From positions 995,001 through 1,059,000 of the forward strand of contig NC_016027.1 in assembly GCF_000182745.2 (NCBI RefSeq): 64,000 nt of DNA, written 5' to 3'. Below, piece by piece: positions 14,601-27,857 of this stretch (its first letter is position 1; each line of letters opens with the position of its first letter). The notes beneath the pieces are model-generated. The model saw only the letters and a list, made by a program, of their open reading frames with translations. It was not told where the DNA came from and made no database searches. This DNA is from Komagataeibacter medellinensis NBRC 3288 (GTDB taxonomy: Bacteria; Pseudomonadota; Alphaproteobacteria; Acetobacterales; Acetobacteraceae). Both the position numbers and the translations under genes were made by a program.

Positions 14601-16025
14601 CTACCTGAACAATGCACCTGCGGCCGCCTGTGCCGCTGTTGCGACCGGGCCAAGTGCCACGATGAAGAAAACGGTCACCAGTCCCATCCCGACCGATACG
14701 AACGATACGGAAACCGGCGTGCGATCCAGCGCCGGGGCTGGTGCATCGAAGAACATGACCTTGACCACGCGCACGTAGTAATAGGCCCCGATCACACTGC
14801 TGATGATACCAATTGCTGCCAGCCCGTAAAGCTGTGCATTGATGGCGGCGTAAAACACCATCAGCTTGCCAAAGAAACCGGCCAGCGGCGGCGCGCCCGC
14901 CATCGAGAACATGAATACCGCCATGGCCAGCGCCAGACCCGGGTCGCTGCGCCCCAGCCCCGCCAGATCACTGATGCGGCTGACCGCATGGCCCTTGCGC
15001 CGCATGGCCACGATGCCGGCAAAGGCACCCACATTCATGAACAGGTAGGTCACAAGGTAGACCAGCGTGCCACGCGTGCCCTCCGCCGTGCCAGCGGCCA
15101 GGCCGATCATGGCATAACCCATATGCCCGATGGAGGAATAGGCCATGAGCCGCTTGATATTGACCTGCGGAATGGCCGCAAGCGAACCGAACAGCATGGA
15201 AGCTGCGGACACCACTTCAATCAGCAGCTGCCATTGCGGCGTCATGCTGCCAAAAGGACCGGCCATGACCCGCAGCAGCACCGCAAACGCCGCAACCTTG
15301 GGTGCCCCCGCCATATAGGCGGTGACTGAACTGGGGGCACCCTGGTACACATCCGGTGTCCACATATGGAACGGCACCATGGACAGCTTGAAGCACAGCC
15401 CCACCAGCACGAACACAATACCCACCATAAGCCCGGCCGGCAGTACCGCACTGCCACGTACCGCCTGCTGCAGCCCCGCATATTCCAGCGTGCCGCCAAA
15501 GCCATAGGCCAGCGAGATACCATAAAGCAGTAACCCCGACGCCAGCGAGCCGAGCACGAAATACTTCAGCCCCGCTTCCGCCGCCGTAACCCGATCACGC
15601 GCGAAGGCGCACAGGATGTAGATAGCCAGCGACGAAAGCTCTAGCCCCACGAACAGCGTCATGAGATTGCCCGAGGACGCCATAATCATCGTACCCAGCG
15701 TGGAAAACGCGATCAGGACAGGGAACTCGAACTTATCGATTTCCATCTCCCGCGCATAACCCACGCTCAGCACCAGCGAGAGTGCGGCCCCGGTCAGGCT
15801 GAGCACCTTCATGAAGCGGGCAAATCCGTCATTGACAAAGACATGTCCGTAGCCGGTGCCATCAGGCGTGAACACCACAAGGATGCCGGTGACCACCAAC
15901 GCCAGCAGCGTCATCATGGTACAGGAGAAGAAGGCCTGCCCGCGCTTCTGCATCACCCCGGCCAGCAGGATGACCAGCCCCGACAGGGCCAGCACGATTT
16001 CGGGCAGAGCAAGTGTCCAGTTCAT
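14601..16025 (-). CDS. nuoN: NADH-quinone oxidoreductase subunit N
   Basis: 474-residue antiporter-like membrane subunit of complex I, with about 14 predicted TM helices. NuoN-type features include LELSSLAIYILCAF, the EAGLKYFVLGSLASGLLLYG block with the conserved Lys, and LMAYSSIGHMGYAMIGL. It ends DRTPVSVSF..ALFR. The start MNWTLALPEIVLAL at 16025 is only 25 bases behind the nuoL stop. In normal operons nuoM lies between these two genes; here it is absent. Confidence 0.96.
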   Translation of the reverse strand: MNWTLALPEIVLALSGLVILLAGVMQKRGQAFFSCTMMTLLALVVTGILVVFTPDGTGYGHVFVNDGFARFMKVLSLTGAALSLVLSVGYAREMEIDKFEFPVLIAFSTLGTMIMASSGNLMTLFVGLELSSLAIYILCAFARDRVTAAEAGLKYFVLGSLASGLLLYGISLAYGFGGTLEYAGLQQAVRGSAVLPAGLMVGIVFVLVGLCFKLSMVPFHMWTPDVYQGAPSSVTAYMAGAPKVAAFAVLLRVMAGPFGSMTPQWQLLIEVVSAASMLFGSLAAIPQVNIKRLMAYSSIGHMGYAMIGLAAGTAEGTRGTLVYLVTYLFMNVGAFAGIVAMRRKGHAVSRISDLAGLGRSDPGLALAMAVFMFSMAGAPPLAGFFGKLMVFYAAINAQLYGLAAIGIISSVIGAYYYVRVVKVMFFDAPAPALDRTPVSVSFVSVGMGLVTVFFIVALGPVATAAQAAAGALFR

Positions 16026-16050
16026 TGGTGTGGCCCTGACATCGTTGGGG

Positions 16051-17988
16051 TTAGCGGGCGAACAGCATGGTGGATAGTAGTACCACCAGCCCGATCAGCA
16101 TGGAAAAGGCATAGACGGCAATCGACCCGGTCTGCACGCGCACGGCCTGCCCGGCGCTGCCTGCGGCCAGGCGGGCCAGACCTTCGGGTATGCCTTCGAC
16201 CACATCCTCATCCACACCCTTCCACAGGAAGCGCGCGAGTGCGCGATAGGGCCGAACGAAGATGAAGGCGTACAACTCGTCAAAATACCATTTGTTGAGC
16301 AGGAACAGATAAAGCGGACGCAGGCCACGCGCCATGGACGCCGGGATACCGGGACTTGCGATGTAACACACATACGCCACCGCAATGCCCGCCACCGCAG
16401 CTATGGTCGGCACCAGCGCAATGAAGCCCGGCGTCTCCTCCAGTCTTGCCATGATGTCGTGGCCGGGCATGGACGTAATCGCTCCGTTCCAGAACGCTAC
16501 CTGATGGACACCGATATAGAAGGGTGCAAGCACAACTCCCGCCACCACCGCGCCAAAGGACAGCACAGCCAGCGGCATGAGCATGGAAGGCGGGCTTTCA
16601 TGCGCGCCTTCATTCAGGTGTGCATCACGCGGCGCGCCATGAAAGACCAGGAAAATCAGCCGCCAGCTGTACAACGCGGTCAGGAACGCGGTGATACACC
16701 CCATGACCCAGCCATAATGCCCCATGGCAGAGCCCGACATCCACGCAGCCTCCAGAATCGCATCCTTCGACCAGTAACCGGCAAAGGGGAAGATACCGGC
16801 CAGTGCGAGGCTACCGATCCACATGGCAGCGTAAGTGAGCGGGATTTTCCGCCATAGTCCGCCCATGCGGAACATGTCCTGCTCATCATGCACGGCGTGG
16901 ATCACGCAGCCCGCGCCAAGGAACAGGAGTGCCTTGAAAAACGCATGCGTGGTCAGGTGGAACATCGACGCCTGATACGCCCCCACGCCAACGGCCACGA
17001 ACATGTAGCCCAACTGCGAGCAGGTGGAATAGGCGATGGTGCGCTTGATGTCGGGCTGCACCAGCCCCACAGTGGCGGCAAAGAAACTGGTAGTGCCACC
17101 AACAAGAATGATCAGGTCGCGGGTTACGGGTGCCAGTTCCACCAGCGGCGACATGCGCACCATAAGGAAGATGCCTGCCGTAACCATGGTAGCTGCATGG
17201 ATCAGGGCGGAAACCGGGGTCGGCCCTTCCATCGCATCGGGAAGCCAGGTGTGCAGGAACAGCTGCGCTGACTTGCCCATGGCACCAATGAACAGCAGCG
17301 TCGCGATCACCTCATACAGCGGATGCGTGCCGAACAGCGCGAACGTATCATTCACATGGTAAGGGATAGCCGCGAAAATATCGTCATACGACACGCTGCC
17401 CAGCCGGATGAAGATGAGCGAGATGCCCAGCAGGAAGAACAGGTCGGCCACGCGATTGACCACAAACGCCTTGATGGCGGCGGCACAGGCGGAAGGCCGG
17501 TCGTACCAGTAGCCGATCAGCAGATAACTGGCGAGCCCCACCCCTTCCCAGCCAAAGAAAAGCTGAAGCAGATTGTCTGATGTCACCAGCATCAGCATGG
17601 CGAAGGTGAATAGCGACAGATAGGAGAAGAAACGGTAAACCGGCCGTGCCTCATGCGCCATGTAGCCCACGCTATATACATGCACCAGCAGCGAGACCAC
17701 GGTGACCATGGCCACCACACTGACCGAAAGCATGTCCATACGCAGTTGCCAGTCAGCCCGGAAACCTGCCGCATGCACCCAGTCGGCCACCGGCACGACA
17801 AATGTGCCCACATCGCCCATCTCGAAGCCTAGCACGCCAATGGCGGCAAGTGCGGCGCACGCCATGAGGGCTATGGTCAGCGCACGCGCCGCCGTATCCC
17901 CCATAAGGTGGCCGAAGCCACCGGCAAGCAGAAAGCCGACAAGGGGCGCGAACACCGCCACTTCAAACAGGAAGGATGCCGTCTGCAT
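16051..17988 (-). CDS. nuoL: NADH-quinone oxidoreductase subunit L
   Basis: 645-residue antiporter-like subunit at the distal end of the membrane arm. VFAPLVGFLLAG at the start, FFGWEGVGLASYLLIGYWY, the KSAQLFLHTWLPDAMEGPTPVSALIHAATMV region and AYSTCSQLGYM are unmistakably NuoL. The long C-terminal part (about residues 500-645) supplies the lateral helix HL and the last TM helix, so the gene is full length and is not a NuoL/NuoM fusion. Starts 5 bases after the nuoK stop. Confidence 0.97.
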   Translation of the reverse strand: MQTASFLFEVAVFAPLVGFLLAGGFGHLMGDTAARALTIALMACAALAAIGVLGFEMGDVGTFVVPVADWVHAAGFRADWQLRMDMLSVSVVAMVTVVSLLVHVYSVGYMAHEARPVYRFFSYLSLFTFAMLMLVTSDNLLQLFFGWEGVGLASYLLIGYWYDRPSACAAAIKAFVVNRVADLFFLLGISLIFIRLGSVSYDDIFAAIPYHVNDTFALFGTHPLYEVIATLLFIGAMGKSAQLFLHTWLPDAMEGPTPVSALIHAATMVTAGIFLMVRMSPLVELAPVTRDLIILVGGTTSFFAATVGLVQPDIKRTIAYSTCSQLGYMFVAVGVGAYQASMFHLTTHAFFKALLFLGAGCVIHAVHDEQDMFRMGGLWRKIPLTYAAMWIGSLALAGIFPFAGYWSKDAILEAAWMSGSAMGHYGWVMGCITAFLTALYSWRLIFLVFHGAPRDAHLNEGAHESPPSMLMPLAVLSFGAVVAGVVLAPFYIGVHQVAFWNGAITSMPGHDIMARLEETPGFIALVPTIAAVAGIAVAYVCYIASPGIPASMARGLRPLYLFLLNKWYFDELYAFIFVRPYRALARFLWKGVDEDVVEGIPEGLARLAAGSAGQAVRVQTGSIAVYAFSMLIGLVVLLSTMLFAR

Positions 17989-17993
17989 GTCCC

Positions 17994-18317
17994 CTACCCC
18001 TTCATCATCGTAATATCGTCGACCTCGATCGACCCGCGATTGCGGAAATAGACCGTGACAATGGCCAGCCCGATGGCGGACTCGGCTGCGGCAATGGTCA
18101 GCACGAACAGCGTCATCACCTGGCCCGACAGGTCGCCGGTCGCGGCCGAGAACGCCACGAAATTGATGTTGGCCGAAAGCAGGATCAGTTCGATCGACAT
18201 CAGGATGATGATGACGTTCTTGCGGTTGAGGAAGATGCCGAACACCCCCAGAACCAGCAGGATCGCGCCTACGCTCAGATAGGGTGCAAGGCCTATCGCC
18301 TCAATCGGGCTATGCAT
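17994..18317 (-). CDS. nuoK: NADH-quinone oxidoreductase subunit K
   Basis: 107-residue membrane subunit with three TM helices. [19 protein letters not shown] contains the conserved membrane Glu, and [17 protein letters not shown] the second one; both belong to the proton path. The start [18 protein letters not shown] at 18317 overlaps the nuoJ stop by 8 bases. Normal family length. Confidence 0.96.
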
Positions 18318-19083
18318 CGCCTTGTCCTTTCGTGCTTTCGGTCGGTGGCGTAACCACAAGTACGGCCTGCGCTTCCTCCGCTACCTCGCGCACACGCCAG
18401 GCTTCGGTACCGTAGGTGCCGGGCACGGCGGCCACGTCGTAACTCTCATGCGGGCGCAGGAAGCCGCCCTGGGCCGCCACACCTGCGCCAAGGGGCACCT
18501 GCAACATCTCAAGCGAGTCCTGCACCACGCGGTCGTGCTGACGGTCAATATTCTGTCGGCGACCGGTTGGCCGGTCGCGCAGGGTCAGCACGATTGCGCC
18601 AATCATGGCCACCAGCAGCACCAGCGCACAGGACTGGAACAGGAAAATGTAGTGGGTATAGATCACATCCCCCAGCGCCGCCGTGTTGGTGCGCGTGGGT
18701 GATGAAGGCACCAGATGCGGGATCTGGTCGATGTTGGAGGCACTGCGCCAGCGCGCAAACGCCATGACCAGTTCCAACAGCAGTACGCCGCCCACCAGCC
18801 CGCCAATGGGCGCGTAGCGCTGCACGCCTTCACGCATGCGGGTGAAATTGACATCCAGCATCATGACCACGAACAGGAACAGCACCGCGACCGCGCCGAC
18901 ATAGACAATGACCAGCGTCATCGCCAGGAACTCGGCCCCCGCGATCAGGAACAGCCCCGACGCGTTGAAGAACGCAAGGATAAGAAACAGCACCGAATGC
19001 ACGGGATTACGCGCGCATACCACCATGGTGGCGGACAGAACCAGCACCGCCGCGAAAACGTAGAAGACAATCTGGGTCATCAT
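18310..19083 (-). CDS. nuoJ: NADH-quinone oxidoreductase subunit J, with extended C-terminus
   Basis: 257-residue membrane subunit with five TM helices in the first 170 residues ([55 protein letters not shown] and others). [13 protein letters not shown] is the family core around the pi-bulge helix. The remaining 80 or so residues form a hydrophilic tail not found in the 184-residue E. coli protein. The tail holds [12 protein letters not shown], a stretch resembling the DRxxD..L region of alphaproteobacterial NuoJ, and a further Glu/Thr-rich end. Two adjacent ATGs exist; the first (19083) is preceded by AGGAAG at 7 bases. Confidence 0.93.
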
Positions 19084-19161
19084 GGGTGGACTTCCTGCCG
19101 CATGGATCTTTCCTCCGGCTGGCATGGCAGGTGCGCCGTGGGCCGCACCTGCCGTGCAGTG

Positions 19162-19650
19162 TCAGCGGTACGGGGCATCAAGTTCAAGCCTGCGGGCAAG
19201 CACGCTTTCCCAGCGGTCGCCGTTGGCCAGAAGCTTGTCCTTGTTGTACATCAGTTCTTCGCGGGTTTCGGTCGCGAACTCGTAATTTGGACCTTCGACA
19301 ATGGCATCGACCGGGCAGGCTTCCTCGCACAGGCCACAGTAGATGCACTTGGTCATGTCAATGTCGTAGCGCGTGGTGCGACGTGAGCCGTCATCGCGCG
19401 GTTCGGCCTCAATCGTGATTGCCTCGGCGGGACATGTCGCCTCGCACAGCTTGCAGGCAATGCAACGTTCCTCTCCATTGGGGTAACGGCGCAGCGCATG
19501 CTCGCCCCTGAAGCGTGGCGAGAGCACGCCCTTCTCGTAAGGGTAGTTGATCGTGGCCTTTGGTTTGAAGAATGCCTTCAGTGTCACACTCATGCCTGCC
19601 ACCAGTTCGGTCAGCAGCATGGAGCGGGCGGCCTTGCCTAAACTGTTCAT
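19162..19650 (-). CDS. nuoI: NADH-quinone oxidoreductase subunit I
   Basis: 162-residue peripheral-arm subunit carrying two [4Fe-4S] clusters (N6a, N6b). Both CxxCxxCxxxCP motifs are seen: [12 protein letters not shown] and [29 protein letters not shown] precedes the first. The start [12 protein letters not shown] at 19650 overlaps the nuoH stop by one base (TGATG). Electrons pass through it to NuoB. Confidence 0.97.
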
Positions 19651-20672
19651 CAGCCTGCTCCTCCGGGCAGAAGGCCCGTTACCATCAGGAAACCCGCGCT
19701 CAACACCATCCATGCCAGCGAGAACGGCAGGAATACTTTCCAGCCCAGCCGCATGAGCTGGTCGTAGCGGTAGCGGGGAAATGTCGCGCGCACCCAGATA
19801 AACACGAACAGGCAGAACAGGATCTTGGCGATCAGCCACAAAGGCCCCGGTATCCATGTAAAGGGCGCGATCCCCAGCGGGGGCAACCACCCACCCAGGA
19901 ACAGGATACTGACCATGCCCGACATCAGGAACATGTTCGCGTATTCACCCAAAAAGAACAGGCCGAACGCAAGGGCCGAATATTCGACAAAGAAGCCCGC
20001 CACCAGTTCGCTCTCGCCTTCTGGCAGATCGAAAGGAGCACGATTGGTCTCGGCCAGTGCGGAGATGAAAAACACGATGAACATCGGGAACATGGGCAGG
20101 CAGAACCACACGTGGCGCTGCGCCAGCACGATGTCATTGAGGTTGAGACTGCCCACCGCCAACAGCACCGACACGATCACCAGCCCGATCGAGACCTCGT
20201 ACGACACCATCTGCGCGGCCGACCGCAGGCCACCAAGGAAGGCATATTTGGAATTGGACGCCCACCCCGCGATCAGCATGCCGTAAACACCAAGTGACGA
20301 GATGGCCAGCAGGTACAGGATGCCCACATTGATGTTGGCAATGGCCAGCCCGTTACCGGTGGGAATAACTGCCCATGCGATCATGGCGAGCGAGAAGGTC
20401 AGGAACGGAGCGAACAGGAACAGCATCCGGTTTGCACCCGCCGGGATGACCGTCTCCTTGGTCAGCATCTTGATCGCATCGGCAAAAGCCTGCAGCACGC
20501 CGAACGGGCCGTTCACGTTCGGCCCCTTGCGCAACTGCATGGCGGCCATCACCTTGCGCTCGGCCAGCGTCAGATATGCTACCCCCAGCAGCAGCGGCAC
20601 CAGTACCGCCAGTGATTCCAGCACGATCAGCAGGATCTGACCCAGCGTGGTATGAAAGAAGAAATCCGCCAT
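19650..20672 (-). CDS. nuoH: NADH-quinone oxidoreductase subunit H
   Basis: 340-residue membrane subunit next to the quinone site, with eight TM helices. Family blocks present are [33 protein letters not shown] (split across the first loop), the acidic loop [20 protein letters not shown] and [30 protein letters not shown] at 20672, four bases behind nuoG, is taken as the start. Confidence 0.97.
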
Positions 20673-20676
20673 GGTC

Positions 20677-22743
20677 CTACTCCGCCGCCTGGTTTGCGGG
20701 GTGCACGTAAATCCCCGAACAGGTTTCCATTGTGGGACTTGCGCGACACACCGCATGGGTCAGGTAATAATCGGCAATGACCGGCTGGAACGCATCTGCC
20801 GCCACCGGCGTGGCACCCGCCTGCGGTCCCGTGGTGTCGGATGTGCCAAGGCGCGTCCACCGTACCTGACCGAATACGGGGTTGGCACGCACCATGCGCG
20901 CGCGCAGCGCATCAATTGTATCATAAGGCAGCTTGTGGCCCACCACTTCGGAGAAGGCACGTAGGATACGCCAGTCCTCCCGCGCATCGCCGGGAGGCAT
21001 GACCGCGCGGAAAGCCTGCTGCACACGGCCTTCGGTATTGGTGTAGGTGCCCGGCTTTTCGGCATAGAGCGTACCAGGCAGGATCACATCGGCCCGCGCG
21101 GCCCCCGCATCGCCATGATGGCCCTGGTAAACCACAAAGGTTTCCTGTCCAATGCGCCCGGTGGGAAACTCATCCGCCCCCAGCAGCCACAGCACGTCCA
21201 CCCCGCCATCCAGCATGCCGGCAACGTCACGCCCCCCGGCGCCCGGCACCAGGCCAAGGTCCAGCCCGGCCACGCGACTTGCTGCCGTATGCAGCACATT
21301 AAAGCCATGCCAGTCCGTGCCAATCGCGCCGACCTGAACAGCCAGATCCCAGCACGCGCGCGCAATGGCCAGACCATCCGGCCGGGTCAGCGCGCCATGA
21401 CCGACAATGACCATAGGCTTCTTCGCGTTCTTCAGCACTTCCGCAAAAGGCAGGTCACCTGCGGCAAGCCTTGCCAACACATCCGGCCCCTCGCCCAACA
21501 TTTCGGCAGCGTAAGTGGGGTCGGCATTGGGGGCACCGATCATGGCGATGGGAAAGCCACCGCGCCCCGCCCCCACAAAACGCTTGCGGATACGCGCATT
21601 GAGCACCGGCGCTTCCTGCCGGGGAATGGAGCCTACGATCAGCAGGGCATCCGCATCTTCAATACCGGTAATGCCGGTATTGAAGGTGTAGAAATCACGC
21701 CGCGAAACATCGTACTGCGCCCCATCCTGCCGGCAGTCGATGTTGGATGAGCCGAGTGCCGCCATCAGGTCCTTCAGCGCCATCATGCTCTCGGCATCGC
21801 ACATATCACCCGCAATCGCGCCGATCCGGTCGCCCGGCATGCCTTTGAAACGGGTTGCGATGGTTGCAAACGCATCCTGCCAGCTTGCGGGTTGCAGCTT
21901 GCCATCCACCCGGATCCAGGGACGGTCAAGGCGGCGACGACGGAAGCCATCGACCACAAAGCGCCCCTTGTCGGCCAGCCATTCCTCGTTCACCTCGTCA
22001 TTGATGCGCGGCGTAATGCGCAGCACGGAGGCGCCACGGGCCTGCATGACGATGTTGGTGCCCACCGCGTCGCATACATCAATCGAGTCCGTGCGCTTGA
22101 GTTCCCATGGCCGGGCGCTGAAGGCGTAGGGCTGCGATGTCAGCGCCCCCACGGGGCAGATATCGATCAGGTTGCCCGACAGTTCGGATGTCAGCGCCTT
22201 TTCGACATAATTGGTGATTTCAAGGTTTTCACCGCGTGAGACGCCACCCAGTTCGGGCACACCCGCCACCTCGGTAGAAAATCGGATGCAGCGCGTGCAC
22301 TGGATGCAGCGCGTCATGACCGTCTTGACCAGCGGGCCAAGATACTTGTCGGTCACCGCGCGCTTGTTCTCGTGGTAGCGGGAATGGTCCGCGCCGTAGC
22401 CAAAGGCCTGGTCCTGCAGGTCGCACTCACCACCCTGGTCACAGATGGGGCAGTCCAGCGGATGATTGATGAGCAGGAACTCCATCACCGCACGGCGCGC
22501 ACGGCGCACGACCTCGGTATCGGTGAAGATCTGCATCCCCTCCCCGATCGGGAAGCCGCAGGATGCCACCGGCTTGCGCCCGCCCGAGACCTCGACCAGG
22601 CACATCCGGCAGTTGCCCGCCACCGACAGGCGTTCATGATAACAGAAACGCGGTATTTCCTTGCCCGCCGCCTCACACGCCTGTAGCGCGGACGAACCGG
22701 CTGCGACGTCTACCGGAATACCGTCAACGGTTACTTTTACCAC
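20677..22743 (-). CDS. nuoG: NADH-quinone oxidoreductase subunit G
   Basis: 688-residue Fe-S subunit of the N-module. The N-terminal ferredoxin-like [2Fe-2S] site ([15 protein letters not shown]), the His-ligated cluster region ([19 protein letters not shown]) and the [10 protein letters not shown] [4Fe-4S] site are present. A molybdopterin oxidoreductase-like domain fills the rest. Length matches alphaproteobacterial NuoG (about 690) and is shorter than the E. coli 908-residue form. Starts 5 bases after nuoF. Confidence 0.97.
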
Positions 22744-22748
22744 TGTTC

Positions 22749-24074
22749 CTACTCCGCCGCTTCAACCAGGCCCGCCGGCACCTGCACGGTACGGCTGCCC
22801 CCATGCGCTGCCTTGTAGGCGCGGATGCGTTCTTCCATAACCGGGCGGAAACGGCGGATCAGCCCCTGTATCGGCCATGCCGCCGCATCGCCCAGCGCGC
22901 AGATCGTGTGGCCTTCCACCTGCCGGGTCACCTGTTCGAGCATGTCGATTTCCTCGATTTCCGCCCGCCCCTGCACCATCCGGTCCATGATGCGCATCAT
23001 CCAGCCCGTCCCCTCGCGACACGGCGTGCACTGACCACAGCTTTCATGCTTGAAGAATTTCGAGAACCGGGCGATCGCCGCGATAATGTCGGTGGATTTG
23101 TCCATCACGATCATGCAACCGGTGCCAAGGCCCGACCCTTCGGCGCGCAGGCTGTCGTAATCCATCAATACGCTCTCGCACACATCGCGCGGCAGCATGG
23201 GCACCGAACAGCCACCGGGAATGACAGCCAGCAGATTGTCCCACCCGCCACGCACACCACCGCCATGCTTTTCAATCAGTTCGCGCATCGGCACGCCAAG
23301 CTCTTCTTCAAACACGCATGGCGTGTTGACGTGGCCCGATATGGCCATAAGCTTGGTGCCTGCGTTATTGGGGCGTCCCAGCCCCGAAAACCATGCAGCA
23401 CCCCGGCGCAGGATGGTGGCGGATACGGCAATACTTTCCACATTATTGACCGTGGTGGGGCAACCATACAGCCCCATCGCCGCCGGGAAAGGCGGCTTCA
23501 TGCGCGGCTGGCCCTTTTTACCTTCAAGGCTTTCCAGCAGGGCGGTTTCCTCGCCGCATATGTAAGCTCCAGCGCCCCGGTGGATGTAGAAATCGAAATC
23601 CCAGCCTGAGCCGCAGGCGTTCTTGCCGATCAGACCCGCCGCGTAAGCCTCGTCAATGGCGTGCTGGAGGTGCATCGCCTCGTTATAGAACTCGCCACGG
23701 ATGTAGATATAGGCCGCATGCGCCCCCATGGCGAAGGAGGCGATCAGCGCGCTTTCCACCAGCTTGTGCGGATCATGGCGCAGGATCTCGCGGTCCTTGC
23801 AGGTGCCAGGTTCTGATTCATCGCCATTGATAACGAGGTAGTGCGGCCGCCCGTCGTTCTTTTTTGGCATGAACGACCATTTGACGCCGGTGGGGAAGCC
23901 CGCACCACCGCGCCCACGCAGGCCGGATGCCTTCATCTCATTAATGATGGCATCGCGCCCGCGCGCCAGTATGTCCGCCGTACCGTCCCAGTCGCCACGG
24001 GCGCGGGCACCGGCCAGCATCCAGTCATTCTGGCCATACAGGTTGGTGAAGATGCGGTCCTTGTCCTGCAACAT
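22749..24074 (-). CDS. nuoF: NADH-quinone oxidoreductase subunit F (NADH and FMN binding)
   Basis: 441-residue subunit that oxidises [17 protein letters not shown] and the following [17 protein letters not shown] block bind NADH and [18 protein letters not shown] with the downstream [12 protein letters not shown] cysteine coordinates cluster N3. The ATG at 24074 lies five bases behind the nuoE stop. Contained in the uninterrupted nuo transcript. Confidence 0.97.
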
Positions 24075-24079
24075 GTTCC

Positions 24080-24739
24080 CTACCCCTGTCCCTGCGGCTT
24101 CTGTGTCGCGTCTTCCACCAGCACCTTGCGCCCGCCTGCGGGGGCAGAGTTCAGGCGGTCGATGGTGGGACCGGGCGCGGGGCGTTCGCCGCGTTTAAGG
24201 GCCGCGATCAACGCCTCCGTACGCGGGCCGTCCAGATCCTCGTAGTAATCATCATCCACCTGCAGGATCGGGGCATTGGCACAGGCGCCAAGGCATTCGA
24301 CCTCCGTCAGGGTGAACAGGCCATCTGCACTGGTCTCGCCAAATGCCCTGATACCCGTCGCCGCTTTGCATGCCGCCGTCACATCATCCGAACCGCGCAG
24401 CCAGCACGATGTGGTGGTGCAGACCTGCAGGTGGTAGCGGCCAATCGGCTTGGTGTTGAACATCAGGTAAAAGGTCGCGACTTCGTATACCCGGATCGGG
24501 GCCATTTCCAGACGTGCCGCCACTACATCCATGGCCACGCGGGGGATCCAGGCGCTGCCGGTCTGGCGGCCCATCTGCTTCTGCACCACATAAAGCAGGG
24601 GCAGCACGCCACTGGCCTTACGCTCGGGCGGATATTTGGCAAGGATGGTCGCGATCTGCTGCTCGCTCTCGTCATCGAATGCGAAATGGGTGGGTTCCAC
24701 GCCATCAGGCGCGTTGGGTTGGACGGACATGTCGGTCAC
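24080..24739 (-). CDS. nuoE: NADH-quinone oxidoreductase subunit E
   Basis: 219-residue thioredoxin-like [2Fe-2S] subunit. The four cluster cysteines are in [11 protein letters not shown] and [31 protein letters not shown] is the family helix bundle. The frame opens with a GTG at 24739 whose last bases overlap the nuoD stop (GTGA). An ATG three codons later ([10 protein letters not shown], 24730) is an equally possible start. The tail after the Fe-S domain ends [15 protein letters not shown]. Confidence 0.95.
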
Positions 24740-25992
24740 CTGTCAATCTCGCCAAATACCAGATCGAGCGACCCGATAATGGCCACGGCATCCGCCAGCA
24801 TGTGCCGGCGCGACATCTCGTCGATTGCCTGGAGATGGGAAAAACCCGTAGGCCGGATCTTGCAGCGATACGGCCGGTTGCTGCCATCGGCCACCAGGTA
24901 CACACCGAACTCCCCCTTGGGCGTTTCGGTCACGGTGTAAGTTGCGCCCGGCGGCACGTGATAGCCTTCGGTAAACAGCTTGAAGTGATGGATCAGCGCT
25001 TCCATCGAGCGCTTCATTTCCCGGCGCGGCGGCGGCGTGATCTTGTGATCCTGCACCTTCACCGGGCCAGGGCGGATCTGTTCAAGGCACTGGTTGACGA
25101 TCTTTACGCTCTCGCGCATCTCGGCAACGCGGATCAGGTAGCGGTCATAACAGTCACCCTGACGACCCACTGGCACGTTGAATTCCACCTTGTGGTAATT
25201 GTCATAGGGCTGGCTGCGCCGCAGGTCCCATGGCACGCCCGATGCCCGCAGGCACGGACCGCTGAAGCCCCAGGCCAGCGCCTGTTCAGTCGTGAAAACA
25301 CCAATGCCCACCGTACGCTGTTTCCAGATGCGGTTATTGGTCAGCAGGGATTCAAGGTCATCAATCCATTTGGGGAAGGTGTGTGCCCAGTCAGCAATGC
25401 GTTCCTCCAACCCGGCGGGCAGGTCCCGCGCCACCCCGCCGGGGCGGACGTAATTGGCATGGAAGCGCGCGCCGGATGCGGCCTCGTAGAACTCGATCAG
25501 CTTTTCGCGTTCCTCATACCCCCATAGCGCGGGTGTCAGCGCCCCGCAGTCCAGCCCGAATGATGTCAGGTTGAGGATATGGTTCAAGATGCGCGTGATC
25601 TCGGCAAACATGACCCGGATCCACTTCGCGCGTTCCGGGGCCTCAATGCCCAGCAGCTTTTCCACCGCCAGCGCGAATGCCTGCTCCTCGCACATGGGCG
25701 AGACGTAATCGAGGCGGTCAAAATACGGTAGCGCCTTGGGATACGTCTTGTACTCGATCAGTTTTTCCGTGCCGCGATGCAGCAGGCCGACATGGGGAAT
25801 GGCACGGGCGACGACCTCGCCCTCCATTTCCAACACCAAGCGCAGCACCCCGTGGGCGGAAGGATGCTGGGGACCGAAGTTCAGCGCGTGGGAGTCAATT
25901 TCCACCACATGGCGCTTGACCTCGCCATCCGTCTCCTCGGGCAGCAGGCTGTCAGGTATGTCCGTATCGCTACGAAGGGTTACGTCGCTCAT
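24736..25992 (-). CDS. nuoD: NADH-quinone oxidoreductase subunit D (49-kDa type)
   Basis: 418-residue subunit lining the quinone cavity with Nuo[24 protein letters not shown] holds the conserved His of the quinone loop. [24 protein letters not shown] and the C-terminal [34 protein letters not shown] are family hallmarks. It is separate from nuoC, unlike the fused E. coli nuoCD. Confidence 0.97.
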
Positions 25993-25999
25993 CTGTCGC

Positions 26000-26674
26000 C
26001 TATCCCTGTCGTTTCATGTCCTGGCGGGCGGCATGTGCCTTTTCATCGCCCGGCAGGGTCAGGATGCCTTCCCATGGGGATTCAAAATCGAAATTGCGGA
26101 AATCCTGCACCAGGTTGACCGGGCCATAGACAACCTGCCGCCGTTCCTCGTCGTATCGCAGTTCGACATAGCCGGTCAGTGGGAAGTCCTTGCGCAGCGG
26201 GTGGCCCTCGAACCCGTAGTCGGTCAGGATACGACGCAGGTCCGGCTGGTCGGTAAACAGAATACCGAACAGATCGTAGGCTTCACGCTCCCACCATGTG
26301 GCTGCGGGCCAGAGCTGGTGCACCGACGGGACAGGCGCCGTCTCGTCCGTGGTCACGATCACACGAATGCGGTGGTTATGGGTAACGGATAACAGGTTGT
26401 AGACCACATCAAACCGCTCAGCGCGTTCGGGGAAATCCACGCCGCATATGTCCATCACCTGCTGGCAGGCATAACGCGGGTCATCGCGCAACATGGACAT
26501 GAGCGGCAGGAGCCGGTCGCGCGTAGTCCGCACTACCAGTTCCCCCTTCTCGATACTGGCGGAAATGACACCGGGCACGGAAGCGGAAAGACGGAAGGCA
26601 ATGACCCCCAGGCCGCCCGGCACCGCGCGCGAAAGTTCCCCGGCACCCGGGGGTGTGTTTGCTGACTCAGCCAC
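26000..26674 (-). CDS. nuoC: NADH-quinone oxidoreductase subunit C (30-kDa type)
   Basis: 224-residue peripheral subunit. The family signature [22 protein letters not shown] and the following [27 protein letters not shown] are present. It starts with ATG at 26674, overlapping the nuoB end by 8 bases, and is followed by nuoD after 7 bases. An N-terminal Ala/Pro/Gly-rich stretch (about 20 residues) precedes the conserved domain. Confidence 0.96.
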
Positions 26675-27245
26675 GACGGATGGTCCCTGTCCTGCGGATT
26701 TTCTTCTGCAGTTGCAGAATGCCGTATATCAACGCCTCCGCCGTGGGGGGGCAGCCGGGCACATATACATCCACTGGCACAATGCGATCACACCCGCGCA
26801 CGACAGAATAGGAATAGTGGTAATACCCGCCGCCATTGGCACATGACCCCATGGAAATGACCCAGCGCGGCTCAGCCATCTGGTCGTAAACCCGGCGCAG
26901 GGCGGGTGCCATCTTGTTGGTCAGCGTGCCCGCCACGATCATCACATCCGACTGCCGCGGCGAACCGCGCGGGATGATGCCCATGCGGTCCAGATCATAG
27001 CGCGGCATGTAGGCGTGGATCATCTCGACCGCGCAGCACGCCAGCCCGAAGGACATGGGCCACAGGCTACCCGTGCGGCCCCAGTTGACCAGCTTGTCCA
27101 GGTTCGCGACGACAAAGCCCTTTTCGGTAATCTCGCCGGTCACGCCCTTGATCACGGCATCCTGCTCTGCGCCCGGGGGCAGCATTTCCCGGTTCCAGGC
27201 GATACTGTCCGCCGGCCGCCCCGTGCCGGGTGTGTCATTGGCCAT
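26667..27245 (-). CDS. nuoB: NADH-quinone oxidoreductase subunit B
   Basis: 192-residue subunit binding cluster N2, the electron donor to quinone. The tandem cysteines (GLACCAVEM), [19 protein letters not shown] and [19 protein letters not shown] provide all four ligands. [28 protein letters not shown] lies between. About 30 residues precede the conserved domain. Starts at ATG 27245, 24 bases after nuoA. Confidence 0.97.
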
Positions 27246-27269: not shown

Positions 27270-27635
27270 TCAATCCCAGTCCAGCGCGCCCTTGCTCCAT
27301 TCGTAAATGAAGCCGACGACCAGAACGCCGAGGAAACCCATCATGGACGCAAAGCCGAACCACCCGATCCGTGACAGGCTCAATGCCCACGGAAACAGGA
27401 AGGCGACCTCCAGGTCGAAAATGATGAACAGGATCGCAACCAGATAAAAGCGCACGTCAAAGCGATGACGCGCATCATCAAACGCCTCGAAACCACATTC
27501 ATAGGCGGACGTTTTCTCCGCATAGGGTTTCTGGTGACCAAACAGCAACGAACTGCCCAGCATGGCCCCCGCGATCACCACAGCAATGCACCCGAATATG
27601 AGAACGGGCAAATAATCAGCGATAACGGAATGCAT
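27270..27635 (-). CDS. nuoA: NADH-quinone oxidoreductase subunit A
   Basis: 121-residue membrane subunit with three TM helices, the first gene of the nuo operon. [36 protein letters not shown] contains the conserved Cys loop and the intramembrane acidic residues. The start [11 protein letters not shown] at 27635 is preferred over an in-frame TTG 15 bases upstream. The leader upstream of it must carry the nuo promoter. Confidence 0.96.
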
Positions 27636-27857
27636 CTTCCGTGTTCCCAACCTGTTAATCAGCCATCCGCCGTCGTTATCGACTTGTCCGTGGCTTTCAG
27701 GATGCTAGCCCCAACATTGGGCAGGGAACAGTTACTTAACGGCGTTCCTGCAGGAACATTACTGTGAGGAGGCCGTACAGGACCAAATTCGTCAATATTA
27801 CGTGACCATTACTTACACGCCACAGTTTGTTGTTCTCATTTTTTCGTGTGAACCAGG
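27636..27857 (-). promoter_or_regulatory. nuo operon leader with a 14-bp perfect palindrome at 27744-27757
   Basis: About 220 bases between the tRNA terminator and nuoA. GTTCCTGCAGGAAC (27744-27757) is a perfect inverted repeat about 110 bases upstream of the nuoA start and is a candidate operator. Read leftward, a TTGACG (-35-like) occurs about 45 bases upstream of it, without a convincing -10 box. Confidence 0.4.

Follow-up and report, generated by a model that had tools for sequence, protein, structure and literature searches.

A lone nuoM some 437 kb from a 13-gene nuo operon very probably completes complex I in Komagataeibacter medellinensis and related acetic acid bacteria

The window, a 64-kb stretch of the Komagataeibacter medellinensis NBRC 3288 genome analysed here at its whole length, carries on its minus strand a nuo operon that opens with nuoA (27270-27650) and closes with nuoL (16051-17988) and nuoN (14601-16025). 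An NCBIfam scan took in ten of the eleven operon proteins other than NuoL and NuoN (NuoA to NuoH, NuoJ and NuoK), and curated cut-offs were reached by NuoB (26667-27245; NF005012, 266.9 bits, cut-off 116), NuoC (26000-26674; NF004733, 285.6 bits, cut-off 225), NuoD (24736-25992; NF004739, 607.6 bits, cut-off 360), NuoE (24080-24739; TIGR01958, 164.4 bits, cut-off 142.4), NuoF (22749-24074; NF010120, 827.1 bits, cut-off 389), NuoG (20677-22743; TIGR01973, 711.2 bits, cut-off 470), NuoH (open reading frame 19650-20756; NF004745, 512.3 bits, cut-off 450), NuoJ (open reading frame 18310-19125, with the true start probably near 19080; NF005164, 265 bits, cut-off 154) and NuoK (17994-18317; NF004323, 154.9 bits, cut-off 89). 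An ATG, residue 15 of the open reading frame 17994-18359 (on which the score was taken), was chosen as the start of nuoK. NuoA has the right length and place and stays below the cut-offs of its models, the best of which (NF005922) gives 102.2 bits against 155. The nuoI frame (19162-19890, its true start probably further downstream) was assigned by its position between nuoH and nuoJ and by tblastn matches that fall where nuoI lies in other nuo clusters.

In a canonical nuoA-N operon nuoM lies between nuoL and nuoN, and at that site, occupied by nuoM in most other alphaproteobacteria seen, the window has a spacer of 25 bases (16026-16050). The original prediction of nuoL followed directly by nuoN was confirmed, as was the statement that both are full length: TIGR01974 matches residues 9-641 of the 645 of NuoL (779.9 bits, cut-off 407.5) and NF004440 matches residues 3-473 of the 474 of NuoN (590.5 bits, cut-off 519). 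Since each protein matches its own family model nearly end to end, neither is a fusion with NuoM.

A PF00361 profile search of the whole genome gave four matches, namely NuoL, NuoN, one full-length match outside the window (G000:C3:1448640-1449485) and one just below the cut-off. Only NuoL and NuoN fall within the window, in agreement with the earlier statement that it holds no other NuoM-like gene. The full-length match belongs to an intact nuoM (G000:C3:1448361-1449902, equal to L005:8362-9903, minus strand) about 437 kb away from the nuoL-nuoN junction, so that, among the options offered for the missing gene, a move to another place in the genome was the right one. Its 513-residue product reaches the NuoM equivalog model NF004499 (592.1 bits, cut-off 585) as well as TIGR01972 (552.1 bits, cut-off 263.8). 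With this gene, the membrane-arm subunits H, J, K, L, M and N are all encoded in the genome, M from the lone locus, and so are those of the NADH and quinone modules, B to G by NCBIfam and I by position and tblastn. The fourth, borderline match is a protein of 571 residues (L006:4450-6165, G000:C3:1126449-1128164) with weak, partial resemblance to PF00361 and weak matches of the hydrogenase-4 subunit B kind; similar weak matches occur in 17 of the 19 genomes of the genus.

Residues 12-494 of the lone NuoM match 8qby_M at 436 bits, this PDB chain being the NuoM of a solved complex I, that of Paracoccus denitrificans, and E151, K230, K261, H318 and E403 align with the same residues there. E151, K230, H318 and E403 are invariant in all 17 aligned NuoM sequences and K261 in 16 of them. 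The channel charges of E. coli NuoM, E144, K234, K265, H322 and E407, for which roles are discussed in the part of PMC9271201 consulted, all have counterparts in the lone NuoM: E144 corresponds to E151, and the other four to K230, K261, H318 and E403 at one constant offset, on which these four equivalences rest in place of an explicit alignment. In its match to 8qby_M and its full-length NuoL and NuoN the system is the same as an alphaproteobacterial complex I with nuoL, nuoM and nuoN in order, but its nuoM stands alone at another locus. Judged by these residues, the lone NuoM would complete an ordinary complex I.

The split is not peculiar to this genome. In all 19 genomes of the genus nuoL and nuoN adjoin without nuoM, and elsewhere there is an M-like match, the open frame of which spans 518-531 residues. 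Outside the genus, 28 genomes of the family were hand-picked by score and size from 120 (10 of which have no PF00361 match) for gene-by-gene listing: 11, from six more genera, are split with a lone nuoM, seven from four genera keep L-M-N together, and ten hold only another type of nuo cluster and no lone nuoM. Thus a lone nuoM accompanies the split operon in 30 of 30 cases (19 in the genus and 11 in the rest of the family). Among the matches listed from named loci, 80 in number, mostly titled alphaproteobacteria, with a few Acetobacteraceae, nuoN follows nuoM in 80 and nuoL precedes it in 78, the contigs of the remaining two starting in nuoM, and no split operon occurs among them. The other cluster type likewise has L, M and N genes, which lie together, but it forms a separate lineage (SH-aLRT 100, 100 and 99 for M, L and N) and is absent from the window genome. 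It was placed by trees for five of the ten genomes and inferred from the score pattern in the other five (G052, G054, G082, G112 and G127).

At the lone locus, nuoM is flanked by mutL, which has the same orientation and precedes it by 132 bases, and by parE, which converges from the other side. The same placement was found in all seven further neighbourhoods read in the genus. When the 18 lone-M neighbourhoods fetched besides that of this genome are considered, mutL adjoins nuoM in 15, the aligned stretches being separated by 104-173 bases. In 14 of these the stretch also includes parE, on the opposite side of nuoM; in L023 no parE is in range. The other three depart from this arrangement: in genus g44 (L025, L026) the distance from nuoM to parE is about 4 kb, with mutL about 7 kb away in L025, and near the nuoM of L020 (G104) there is neither gene; in that genome mutL, parE and nuoM are on three contigs.

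The pairing of parE and mutL was followed into genomes of other types. Of the genomes limited to the other cluster type, eight were examined: the two genes are separated by 0.9-2.6 kb in seven and by 5.4 kb in the eighth. A search for a nuoM remnant between them at eight loci (L147-L154, from eight genomes of eight genera, all without the window-type complex I) gave no NuoM tblastn match at E<=1 at any of the eight. Where the L-M-N operon is intact (eight genomes), parE and mutL lie 254 and 342 kb apart in the two genomes that have both on one contig, and on different contigs in the other six; six genomes free of complex I likewise do not have them as neighbours, the distance being 231 and 407 kb in two while the remaining four carry them on separate contigs. 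The mutL-nuoM-parE neighbourhood is therefore not fixed, since complex-I-free genomes nested in the clade by the tree are without it. The lone locus looks as old as the split clade, with the neighbourhood broken later in some members.

The 132 bases between mutL and nuoM (L005:9904-10035) contain a block around AATGTGAGCG...TGGATT that shows conservation across 11 sequences of three genera and could be a promoter for nuoM. The block was not found upstream of nuoA when the window was searched with up to 3 mismatches; the eight matches to it in the window are near chance (shuffle mean 3.71, with 5 of 100 shuffles reaching 8).

Trees of 38 NuoM, 38 NuoL and 36 NuoN sequences were used to follow the history of the split. 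Both the 19 lone NuoM and the NuoN partners group as single clades (SH-aLRT 100 for each). The NuoL partners require two changes, at weakly supported forks, but are united in a single clade (100) by the wider tree. In that wider tree the lone NuoM (9 rows) are nested inside the NuoM of the family (SH-aLRT 100). Furthermore, a tree of ParE and MutL from 34 genomes, in which the row of G069 has a very long branch, resolves one clade (100) with the split genomes at its base, the genomes with the other cluster type and those free of complex I making up one nested clade (100) within it. A single loss event, counted as one event only, accounts for the disappearance of both unlinked loci from this nested clade. 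The simplest history suggested by these trees, the counts of which come from short searches and which support a single origin of the split and one joint loss, is that the native nuoM moved once in a common ancestor and that both loci were later lost together.

The rate of change differs between the displaced gene and its former neighbours. Mean distances to a Roseomonas sequence are 2.18, 1.38 and 1.24 for M, L and N in nine lone-M rows versus 1.33, 1.27 and 1.10 in seven intact-operon rows, and the stem branch of the split clade measures 0.68 for NuoM versus 0.27 for NuoL and 0.21 for NuoN. The ratio of M to the mean of L and N is 1.48-1.81 in split rows and up to 1.35 in intact-operon rows, so that the contrast is clear though not absolute. 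The lone NuoM is thus more diverged from its partners' level than NuoM of intact-operon genomes, some of which also have longer M branches, and this suggests that constraint changed around the move. Within the genus, the lone nuoM is under strong purifying selection, as median dN/dS over 28 pairs from eight genomes is 0.097 for nuoM, 0.111 for nuoL and 0.071 for nuoN.

Taken together, the genome very probably encodes a complete, conventional 14-subunit proton-pumping complex I from two loci, the 13-gene nuoA-L,N operon of the window and the lone nuoM. Based on this reading, a single departure of the native nuoM from the operon would date to an ancestor shared by a group of genera of acetic acid bacteria, from which the split would have passed to those of the genera examined that retain the window-type complex I. 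The product of the lone nuoM would occupy the usual middle position of the antiporter-like subunits L-M-N, assembling into the complex of the window operon with normal proton stoichiometry.

The operon without nuoM could by itself be taken for a reduced complex I that dispenses with NuoM, has a shortened membrane arm and pumps fewer protons, and this had been among the options raised at the outset, together with a substitute subunit. Neither found support, as a NuoM-sized PF00361 gene is present in every split genome examined; a reduced enzyme is very unlikely, being also countered by selection on the lone nuoM as strong as that on its partners in the eight genomes of the genus tested, and by a protein labelled NuoM that is made by Acetobacter pasteurianus according to the accessible part of PMC10742644. 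A precise deletion, likewise proposed, fits the empty site but not the outcome. That the lone NuoM serves a different complex, either a second complex I or an Mrp-type antiporter, with the 13-gene operon truly M-less, might be suggested by the second set of L, M and N genes in 12 of the 19 genomes of the genus. However, the second set has its own M, the other seven genomes, this one included, lack it and yet keep the lone nuoM, the lone nuoM is missing from the ten genomes that hold just the other cluster type, and the sole further PF00361-like protein of this genome is the borderline one of 571 residues, all of which make this reading highly improbable. An assembly collapse at 16026-16050 that dropped nuoM has practically no chance of being the explanation, since the same nuoL-nuoN junction, with clade-specific sequence over a gap of 20-76 bases, was found in all 19 genomes read from seven genera, among them the one-contig genome G025. 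A gap of this length is too short for a nuoM remnant.

A further alternative is that the original nuoM was deleted and a nuoM from another lineage took over. The long stem of the lone NuoM relative to those of NuoL and NuoN would fit such a replacement, and the three trees (M, L and N) disagree to some extent on the closest intact-operon relatives. Against it, the lone NuoM falls inside the NuoM of the family with full support, neither with the other cluster type nor with other alphaproteobacteria; replacement is accordingly given little credence, and its donor may have belonged to the family itself. One relocation of the native gene is the preferred account.

In the accessible parts of the published record, a separate nuoM is already in print in passing for one species, Acetobacter pasteurianus. 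Strain SKU1108 was described with the operon APT_01737-APT_01725 and a separate nuoM, APT_00690, conserved in three strains (PMC5158111), and complex I of strain 386B was given as APA386B_556-567 plus APA386B_2247 (PMC3751514); the latter, unnamed there, would be nuoM by inference. In both strains the arrangement shows no difference from the split of the window genome, and the separate gene is listed without comment in the text seen. For Gluconacetobacter diazotrophicus, 13 tags (GDI2459-GDI2471) were listed for nuoA-nuoN and the complex was called complete (PMC2765452), and a probable 15-gene operon of nuoA-nuoN and lao was reported for this species (PMC9368920), which has two operons. Acetic acid bacteria were described as having none, one or two nuo operons, with a tree built from nuoHIJKLN, without M (PMC4596401), and the other cluster type is probably the extra operon of that work. 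An account of respiration in the family (PMC10715153), in the main text of which the word nuoM is absent, notes the separation of petA from petBC in acetous taxa. The portions of PMC12405394, PMC4013037 and PMC4007555 consulted held nothing bearing on the nuoM move, and no discussion of the move itself was found in the literature searched, which lay outside supplements and most subscription papers. The main addition made here is the clade-wide single origin suggested by the trees, followed by the faster evolution of NuoM on the branch of the move.

As to expression, the original prediction would have yielded to a nuoM elsewhere in the genome that is expressed; the gene is present here, and the protein is on record only in the relative A. 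pasteurianus, under the label of the authors. In the part of that proteomic study available (PMC10742644), the protein labelled NuoM (fig_HN.1610), taken as the product of the lone nuoM because its number is distant from those of the operon, changed 0.62, 0.33, 2.16 and 1.78 fold, and NuoN (fig_HN.3354) 0.93, 0.31, 2.22 and 2.12 fold. The other Nuo subunits listed (fig_HN.3342-3350) change in the same directions; in one of the four comparisons NuoM and NuoN, at 0.62 and 0.93, fall less than these others (0.29-0.51).

With an intact nuoM in the genome, a false case of reduced complex I is removed, and the relocation appears harmless, the enzyme being very probably complete. The point bears on surveys of gene clusters: in a 2025 survey (PMC12361115), the part seen of which groups Nuo hits on one strand within 250 bases as a cluster and calls subunit-lacking clusters partial, a lineage whose nuoM is displaced could be scored as having none. 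The split also offers a natural experiment, in which the gene of a central subunit would have stood outside the operon throughout the history of the clade and is still strongly selected. A more speculative idea, held to be improbable, is that a separate nuoM lets the cell set the supply of NuoM independently, so that part of complex I would be built without the distal NuoM and NuoL, tuning the protons pumped per electron. Were it true, some conditions, e.g. acid stress, would yield a fraction without NuoM and NuoL, and the faster evolution of NuoM on the branch of the move and the conserved upstream block would be traces of such regulation.

Several minor observations were also made. A plasmid search returned 106 records, none covering 80% of the query. 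The second set of L, M and N, seen for example at G012:C1:1434292-1438498 and absent from this genome, is a distant lineage in trees for G012, the only one placed. Pairs resembling nuoL and nuoM occur in two other genera at L055:2150-5502 and L058:2285-5613 (G033 and G035); no other nuo genes were present in the upstream stretches read (L183, L184) and no nuoN downstream. Considered as a reduced complex I, the pairs do not resemble complex I operons, as the stretches read to either side showed no further nuo gene, and they possibly represent a separate antiporter-like pair; G054 may hold a similar one, at which its contig ends (L061). Finally, a metagenome contig titled Asaia bogorensis (L072) has an L-M-N operon and falls outside the split clade, and its title may be misassigned.
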